A stretch of 64,000 nucleotides of DNA from Clostridiales bacterium (GTDB taxonomy: Bacteria > Bacillota > Clostridia > Christensenellales > Aristaeellaceae): contig JAAYDR010000059.1 of assembly GCA_012729115.1 (NCBI GenBank), positions 1 to 64,000 on the forward strand, read 5' to 3'. The first letter of the stretch is position 1. The number at the start of each line of letters is the position of its first letter. Positions 52,207-54,170 of this stretch are shown one piece after another. Made by a program: the position numbers and the translations under genes. Under the pieces are notes generated by a model. That model did no database searches, was not told the origin of the DNA, and saw only the letters and a program-made list of their open reading frames with translations.

Positions 52207-53748
52207 TTATTTGGCGAATTCGGTGCTGCGGGTTTCCCGGATCACATTGACACGGATTTGACCGGGATACTCCAGTTCCTTTTCGATGCGCTTGGCAATT
52301 TCCTTGGCCAGCACCCGGGTACCGTCGTCGGTGACATCCTCGGGCTTGACCATGATGCGGACCTCGCGGCCGCTCTGGATGGCAAAGCTCTTGTCTACCC
52401 CGATAAAGGAGTTGGCGATTTCCTCCAGCTTCTCCAGGCGCTTGATGTAGTTCTCCAGGGACTCGCGGCGCGCGCCGGGGCGGGCGGCGGAGATCGCATC
52501 GGCTGCCTGCACCAGCACAGCCTCGATGGTCTGGGGCTCCACATCGTTGTGATGGGCCAGAATGGCGTGGATGACGTCCGGGCTTTCCCGGTATTTGCGG
52601 GCCAGCTCTCCGCCCAAAGTTACGTGGGTGCCCTCGGCCTCGTGGTCAACGCCCTTGCCGATGTCGTGAAGCAGCCCGGCCCGCTTTGCCAGAGCTACGT
52701 CGGCCCCCAGCTCGGCGGCCATGAGGCCGGCCAGATGGCTGACTTCGATGGAGTGCTTGAGCACGTTCTGGCCGTAGCTGGTGCGGTAGCGCAGGCGGCC
52801 CAGAATCTTGATCAGTTCGTGGTGGATACCGTGCTGATGGGTTTCAAAGACCGCCTGTTCACCGGCTTCACGGATCTGGGTGTCCACTTCCTTGCGGGCT
52901 TTCTCCACCATTTCCTCGATGCGGGCAGGGTGAATGCGGCCGTCCATAATGAGCTTTTCCACAGCCAGCCGGGCGATTTCCCGACGGACCGGGTCAAAAG
53001 CGCTGACGATGACAGCCTCGGGGGTGTCGTCAATGATGAGGTCCACGCCGGTGGCGGTTTCCAGGGCGCGGATGTTGCGGCCCTCCCGGCCAATGATGCG
53101 GCCCTTCATGTCGTCGTTAGGCAGGCTGATGACAGAGACGGTGCTTTCGGCCACGTGGTCGGCAGCGCATTTCTGGATGGCCAGGGCGATGATGTTGCGG
53201 GCCTTTTTCTCGCCTTCTTCTTTGGCCTTGGTTTCGATGTCCCGCACCATGGCTGCGGCATCATGGAAGGCGTCCTTTTGGATGCGGCCGACCAACACCT
53301 GGCGGGCTTCATCCTGGGTCATAGCGGCAATGCGCTCAAGCTCCTGCAGCTGCTTCTGCTGGCCTTGAACCAGCTCCGCCTGCCAATGCTGAAGTTCGGC
53401 GGCCTTTTGATTGAGGGACTCCTCTCTGGCCTCTATGTTATCCTGTTTCTTGTCCAGGGTTTCCTCCCGCTGAATGATGCGGCGCTCGCTGCGCTGCACC
53501 TCGGCCCGGCGGTCCCGGCATTCGCGGTCCAGCTCGGTTTTAAGCCGCAGGACCTCCTCTTTGGCCTCCAGAATGGTTTCCTTTTTCTTTTCATCCGCCT
53601 TGCGCATGGCGTCTTCCAGCAAATTTTTAGCGTATTCCTCAGTCCGGCCGATCTTCTTTTCTCCGGATTGCTTACGGTAAAGATACCCCCCGACTACGCC
53701 CAGGGCTGCGGTGACGAGGGCAATAAGTATCGCAACGATTGGATGCAT
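52207..53748 (-). CDS. rny: Ribonuclease Y
   Basis: 513 residues, the standard size. N-terminal membrane anchor ([18 protein letters not shown]), a long charged coiled coil at about 30-200, a KH domain ([20 protein letters not shown]), and an HD domain with the metal motif [10 protein letters not shown]. It is the main endoribonuclease starting mRNA decay in many Bacillota. It is preceded by a possible structured RNA with its own terminator; AAAGGAGAGG precedes the ATG. Confidence 0.97.
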
Positions 53749-53818
53749 AGGTCCTCTCCTTTCTCAGTTTTCAAATTTTCTTGTTATTTCTAGGGGGAAG
53801 GGCACTTTCTGACAACAG

Positions 53819-54135
53819 AAAAAGCCGACGGGAATTTCCCGCGCGGCTGCTGTTCCCTTTGCTACGGCTTTGCACATATGAAAAAAGTACTTTGCCGTTG
53901 CATCCGCACCATCAGGCGTTTTGTTTTCTACAAGAAAACATGGTCCGCCTCACCATGCAGATCCATATACCCAGCCAAACGCCAGAGGCGTTGCACTTTC
54001 GCAAAACCCGCCAACCCGGTTTCCTATGGAAGGTGAAACCTTCACAACGGTGGAGGGAAAGCCGATCCGTGGGAATATATCCGAAAAACAGCGAAGATTC
54101 TACCTTGGTTGCAAAGTGGAACCTTTTGAGCCGAC
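53819..54135 (-). ncRNA. Candidate structured non-coding RNA upstream of rny
   Basis: The 473 bases between rny and the glycosyltransferase contain no credible gene. On the minus strand a perfect consensus promoter predicts a start near 54135, and an intrinsic terminator (stem AGCCG..CGGG / CCCG.CGGCT, then TTTTT) ends near 53819. The predicted RNA of about 315 bases is full of local hairpins: GAAGGTTTCACCTTC, AACGCCTCTGGCGTT, CATGGT-GAGGCGG-ACCATG and GTTTTCTTGTAGAAAAC. The GAGGCG loop can pair with CGCCTC or CGCCTG elsewhere, which hints at pseudoknots. I do not recognise RNase P, tmRNA, 6S or SRP RNA. It could also act as a cis-leader of rny if the terminator is read through. Confidence 0.65.
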
Positions 54136-54141
54136 TCCCAT

Positions 54142-54170
54142 ATTATAGAGGCCGGTAGACAATCTGTCAA
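54142..54170 (-). promoter_or_regulatory. Perfect consensus promoter of the candidate RNA
   Basis: TTGACA (54170-54165), exactly 17 bases, TATAAT (54147-54142) on the minus strand. It is one of the two strongest promoters in the window, with no start codon behind it for almost 400 bases. Confidence 0.85.

Follow-up and report, generated by a model that had tools for sequence, protein, structure and literature searches.

A structured leader RNA upstream of the RNase Y gene rny, a likely conserved on/off switch in uncultured gut Clostridia

A structured RNA of about 320 bases located ahead of rny looks like a conserved on/off switch of this gene, and is common in uncultured gut Clostridia. Most mRNA decay in Bacillus subtilis, and probably in numerous other Gram-positives, is initiated by RNase Y. 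In our favoured reading, which has moderate confidence, the rny transcript begins with this element as its 5′ leader, which acts as a transcription attenuator, most likely through a feedback presumably exerted by RNase Y itself. In B. subtilis, the supply of the enzyme is adjusted to demand through the decay of its own mRNA (PMC10303841). A conserved attenuator would represent a different answer to the problem that B. subtilis solves by mRNA decay, one that comparative analysis brings to light in lineages lacking cultured models and that yields short, defined sequences.

The window, i.e., the whole stretch of 64,000 nucleotides that was analysed, comes from a Clostridiales bacterium (GCA_012729115.1, contig JAAYDR010000059.1), and the nearest named records of its lineage are MAGs, many of them from gut and rumen samples. 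On the minus strand are found, in this order, a 12/12 sigma-70 promoter, a structured RNA of about 310 nt, an intrinsic terminator and, after 70 nt, rny (Table 1). The latter is an open reading frame that probably encodes RNase Y, the name given to it in the initial annotation; its protein is 62–88% identical to that of the best 80 loci in the genome contigs searched. In the scanned region, two promoter sites scored at least 9/12, vs. 0.9 expected in shuffles, and the single 12/12 site is the leader promoter. The initial annotation had already pointed to this TTGACA-17-TATAAT promoter, which proved exact and to which the strand can now be added, and to an intrinsic terminator, here located with its T-run at 53848–53819. 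The strong local structure that it described is also borne out, as the RNA from 54136 to 53818 (319 nt) folds with –122.8 kcal/mol (z = –4.1), none of 100 shuffles folds equally well, and hairpin P1 is accompanied by several more hairpins. Likewise, in agreement with the reported lack of an open frame with a ribosome site, no start codon with such a site stands out, and a Shine-Dalgarno uORF occurs in 7 of 59 homologous leaders vs. 12% of the shuffled ones (one leader without an automatically picked terminator being left out, here and in the GCCG and CAGY counts below); attenuation by a leader peptide was rejected on these grounds.

Table 1. Features of the rny leader region in the window.
Feature	Position	Strand	Basis or remark
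Sigma-70 promoter TTGACA-17-TATAAT	54142..54170	-	12/12; expected start about 54136-54134
Promoter boxes	TTGACA 54170-54165, 17-nt spacer, TATAAT 54147-54142	-	12/12
Invariant CGGC	54130..54133	-	5′ strand of the long-range helix P0, or of a local stem with GCUG
Hairpin P1	54094..54125	-	Pairing kept despite sequence change; compensatory pairs
Conserved linker GCTGTTTTTCGGATATA (GCUG + U-rich + GAUA)	54076..54092	-	Alignments of 15 and 45 sequences
Genus-level helix P3 (54080-54071 with 53972-53963, hairpins in between)	53963..54080	-	Own vs. swapped pairing energy
CAGC, partner of GCUG (helix P2)	53849..53852	-	CAGY frequency in leaders; paired in MFE
Intrinsic terminator AGCCGCGCGGGAAATTCCCGTCGGCT + T-run	53819..53848	-	5′ arm with GCCG (53847-53844), partner of CGGC
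rny leader past the terminator	53749..53818	-	Shine-Dalgarno AGGAG 53760-53756; without promoter
rny, RNase Y (513 aa)	52207..53748	-	ORF

Within the genus of the window, a rny match was obtained in 14 of 17 genomes, all 14 of which carry the element ahead of rny, while the genes on its far side differ among them, as judged by eye. The other three genomes (G003, G004, and G015) contain neither a rny match nor a leader RNA, due to assembly gaps or to a real loss. The 14 genomes, together with one genome of another genus (L002), share the promoter, GTCGGC, a hairpin, GCTG with a T-run, GATATA or a variant of it, and the terminator, the latter being 70–105 nt ahead of rny in these 15 genomes; some of the terminators were reset or read by eye after mis-picks of the script. 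The promoter is TTGACA-17-TATAAT in 13 of the 14 genus homologues, with an 18-nt spacer in the remaining one, and a one-base variant (TACAAT) is present in L002. In 13 genus sequences, RNAalifold revealed both-sided changes in 10 of 22 pairs, in P1 and in the terminator, and the P3 helix, within which GAUAUA is possibly paired in this genus, had a pairing energy of –7.6 kcal/mol with its own strands, vs. –6.2 with swapped and –5.3 with shuffled ones.

To extend the comparison to the family, 98 upstream regions from 97 genomes and 38 genera were collected: rny was found in 114 family genomes, 89 of which provided 90 regions (25 were omitted because of short contigs or broken or weak matches), and eight genus genomes were added. 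The RNA is present in 60 of the 98 regions and in 17 of the 38 genera, with the same architecture (promoter, CGGC, hairpin, GCUG(U)n with GAUA, CAGY, and a terminator with GCCG in its 5′ arm), in which the sequence of the hairpin is wholly different between genera. Fifty of these leaders fit a strict 5′ motif, for which 14,600 shuffled leader starts gave 13 matches, and the other 10 were accepted on visual inspection; CGGC belongs to the motif used for picking, and its invariance is therefore partly the result of selection. Over 53 domains, P1 folds with –11.7 kcal/mol, vs. –5.3 kcal/mol both for shuffled sequences and for cross-genus chimeras, with z < –2 in 44 of the 53. The conserved part consists of the compact 5′ domain and the terminator region, while the middle is highly variable, and the likeness to large ornate RNAs such as OLE and ROOL suggested by the initial annotation is not sustained. 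Outside the family, the core motif is absent from the rny upstream regions of 40 genomes belonging to 26 other families of the order, all scanned and sampled from 105 genomes with rny.

The invariant segments are complementary at long range, CGGC at the 5′ end to the GCCG of the terminator 5′ arm (helix P0, five pairs in the window), and GCUG after P1 to the CAGY just upstream of the terminator, a pairing (P2) that is seen in the MFE structure of the window; in the consensus fold, CGGC also closes locally on GCUG around P1. Short invariant segments beside diverging stems suggest two partners for each of them, and in the modelled folds a CGGC–GCCG helix can preclude the terminator. In leaders chosen by the 5′ motif, and thus independently of both segments, GCCG is found in the terminator 5′ arm in 56 of 59 cases vs. 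13% of shuffled windows (52 of 55 without four windows set by hand), and CAGY at no more than 14 nt upstream of this GCCG in 45 of 59 vs. 7%; CAGY is missing in 14 leaders, including 6 of the 14 of the window's genus. Folding was performed on 58 of the 60 leaders: when cut after the terminator 5′ arm, 52 have an MFE structure in which CGGC is joined to the GCCG region, 43 form the terminator at full length, and 38 show both folds. The long-range pairing is supported, at the sequence level, by this invariance, without clear covariation. When the own pair was compared with those of other genera, shuffles were as good with frequencies of 0.17 and 0.04, in permutation tests that are weak and, for the value of 0.04, run with some wrong GCCG sites; swapping the ends between genera had little energy cost, as expected for invariant segments, and this is not covariation. 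The pair was kept in 234 of 290 folds in which the middle had been shuffled and therefore depends on the ends alone. Longer end helices with other letters were noticed by eye in G181 (CGGCAUUC/GAAUGCCG) and in G034 (CGGCUUUG/CAAAGCCG), and the G150 leader (L181) keeps a UCGGCAG/CUGCCGA end complementarity in the absence of a clear terminator.

As a transcription attenuator, the leader would be made by a polymerase starting at the strong promoter and could then adopt either of two predicted folds. In the antiterminating one, the pairing of CGGC with the terminator-arm GCCG, aided by that of GCUG with CAGC, would block the terminator and allow transcription of rny; in the terminating one, with the 5′ domain freed or closed locally (CGGC-P1-GCUG), the terminator would form and transcription would stop. 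The RNase Y level would be set by the winning fold, presumably in this direction, and the most likely trigger is RNase Y itself, which may bind or cut the U-rich GAUA linker, so that the 5′ strand is parted, the terminator becomes free and a negative feedback results. RNase Y is membrane-bound, and its action on nascent RNA is therefore not obvious. The linker, lying beside a hairpin, would by analogy have the features of B. subtilis RNase Y sites, in which GA is favoured and the RNA is AU-rich and unpaired (PMC11780869). The B. subtilis enzyme acts as its own repressor by cleaving the rny mRNA, whose leader is 164 nt long and is cut mainly in the first 50 nt (PMC10303841).

A different trigger is assumed if the element is a riboswitch: a small molecule or an ion, recognized by the 5′ domain or by the variable middle, would then set RNase Y. 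Invariant nucleotides surrounding a variable hairpin, and a terminator in competition with a 5′-strand helix, correspond to the usual riboswitch layout, but the element occurs only before rny, in one copy per genome where found, whereas riboswitches usually act on several genes of one pathway; moreover, its conserved nucleotides are few and mostly explained by pairing, which makes this reading rather unlikely. Tentatively, the element could define a novel class of RNA switches responding to a signal, be it a small molecule, an ion or the RNA-degradation load, and setting RNase Y by attenuation; if true, an RNA sensor would tune the global rate of mRNA decay throughout a large gut-Clostridia lineage.

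The initial annotation had left the choice between a free RNA and a cis-acting control of rny, and it is the latter, in the form of an attenuator, that fits much better. A free, perhaps trans-acting, ncRNA with its own promoter and terminator, placed beside rny by descent, would account for the complete promoter–terminator unit and for the pairing of the 5′ and 3′ ends, as in many stable RNAs. However, the RNA is always linked to rny while the far-side genes change, and the gap between terminator and rny holds no other promoter for the gene: in 57 of 60 regions the best site in the gap reaches at most 8/12, as in shuffles, and the leader promoter scores 9.5–12 in 60 of 60. Since no gap promoter exceeds chance, rny would have to be reached by readthrough of the terminator. 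In addition, many genera without the RNA have a similar promoter directly ahead of rny (24 of the 38 regions lacking it, with a score of 10–12 within 190 nt of the gene). A free ncRNA is, on the whole, improbable, and the order of the parts, with promoter, leader, intrinsic terminator and then a gene without its own promoter, is the one expected of an attenuator leader. The highly variable middle and the weak covariation of P0 would also agree with an unremarkable long 5′ UTR, folded only to shield the mRNA or to delay its decay; in such a leader, however, an intrinsic terminator, here picked automatically in 57 of 60 leaders with a few wrong picks, would be harmful without regulated readthrough, and we regard this explanation as very improbable.

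The novelty of the structured RNA upstream of rny, claimed in the initial annotation, is upheld both by a structure strongly conserved across genera, with compensatory pairs, and by the search of all 4227 Rfam families, which at the gathering cut-off gave one tRNA in the whole window and nothing in the element. No credible match to the window element appeared at E ≤ 10, and the leaders of 12 (E ≤ 0.5) and 15 (gathering cut-off) further rny loci gave solely weak matches far below the cut-off; a match to Clostridiales-2 at E 0.006 (L008:3076-3182) lies outside the element. The 6S RNA (RF00013) does not match the element and is found above cut-off elsewhere in 16 of the 17 genus genomes. It was not found in the window's own MAG (G000, whole genome), probably because of a missing contig. 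Identity with a known family was thus rejected, and even a diverged member of one (6S, raiA, OLE, ROOL or T-box), to which size and structure density might point, has a negligible probability given the empty Rfam results and the separate 6S gene.

The element had no match by nucleotide search in 50,697 phage records, and BLASTN against 100 relatives returned only the element itself and one 36-bp terminator match, due to sequence divergence, as anchoring on rny recovers it in 14 of 14 genus genomes with a rny match. A covariance model of the 5′ domain (R1) matched 19 of 300 family genomes, with one match each, all 19 beside rny according to their coordinates (four checked by tblastn). A second model (R2, 45 sequences) had matches in 14 of 120 family genomes and missed the window itself; it is too weak for whole-genome use, and its yield within the order, 1 of 247, therefore says little. 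The pattern CGGC..GCTGTTTTCGATA matched 20 places, spread over 17 of 120 genomes, vs. 2 for the reversed control; 10 places, in eight genomes, are rny leaders, and of the 10 located elsewhere the one that was read (G025:C83) is a terminator behind another gene. Another pattern, badly chosen, matched 0 of 120 genomes. Apart from such chance pattern matches (ten places, one read), the R1, R2 and pattern searches yielded no copy of the element away from rny. In the literature searched on RNase Y leaders, autoregulation, riboswitches and structured RNAs, no leader-associated RNA for RNase Y control is reported, and neither rny nor RNase Y is mentioned in the main texts of PMC8632094, PMC2864571, and PMC8040213, one of which has thousands of supplementary candidates. 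An attenuator RNA for RNase Y appears to be new, while RNase Y autoregulation as such is already known in B. subtilis.

Among the known systems, T-box, riboswitch and ribosomal protein leaders would be alike in that mutually exclusive helices, predicted for the element, decide on readthrough into the gene, but the element has no Rfam match to them and is found only ahead of rny. It shares length and structure density with the raiA motif, OLE and ROOL, from which it differs by the lack of an Rfam match, the small conserved core and the tie to rny. The control exerted by the E. coli rne 5′ UTR is decay-based and without a terminator, in an unrelated gene and unrelated bacteria. This 5′ UTR is nevertheless the leader of a functionally equivalent RNase and has a conserved structure, with a stem-loop that RNase E binds in its feedback (PMC10303841). 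A further comparison, made by description, is with the B. subtilis rny leader, which is also long, partly controls the same gene from the 5′ UTR, and is cut close to the 5′ end, where the RNA is AU-rich and has a stem-loop; by contrast, it measures 164 nt and acts by mRNA decay, and its source text makes no use of the word “terminator” (PMC10303841).

Other types of rny leader were also observed. In L137, L138, and L052, from genera that lack the long RNA, short rny leaders have a small hairpin in common (CATGTAAACTGC..ATA.GTATGTGTGCATG), which may be a minimal regulatory element. In the rny leaders of L047, L048, and L051, pairing is possible between a 5′ GTCAAAGTG and a 3′ segment resembling CACACTTTT(T)GAC, and also between the CACACT of that segment and the Shine-Dalgarno region GGAGTGTGA, in what looks like a translational counterpart. 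Rny leaders with 5′–3′ complementarity or with hairpins near the Shine-Dalgarno sequence are also present in another family of the order (L206, L209, and L210). Finally, the rny leaders of L061, L064, and L215 share GAGTAATCCTGCACTGCC and GCCGGGCAGTTT.GCTCGGTTATATT, and represent a further conserved leader type in another lineage.
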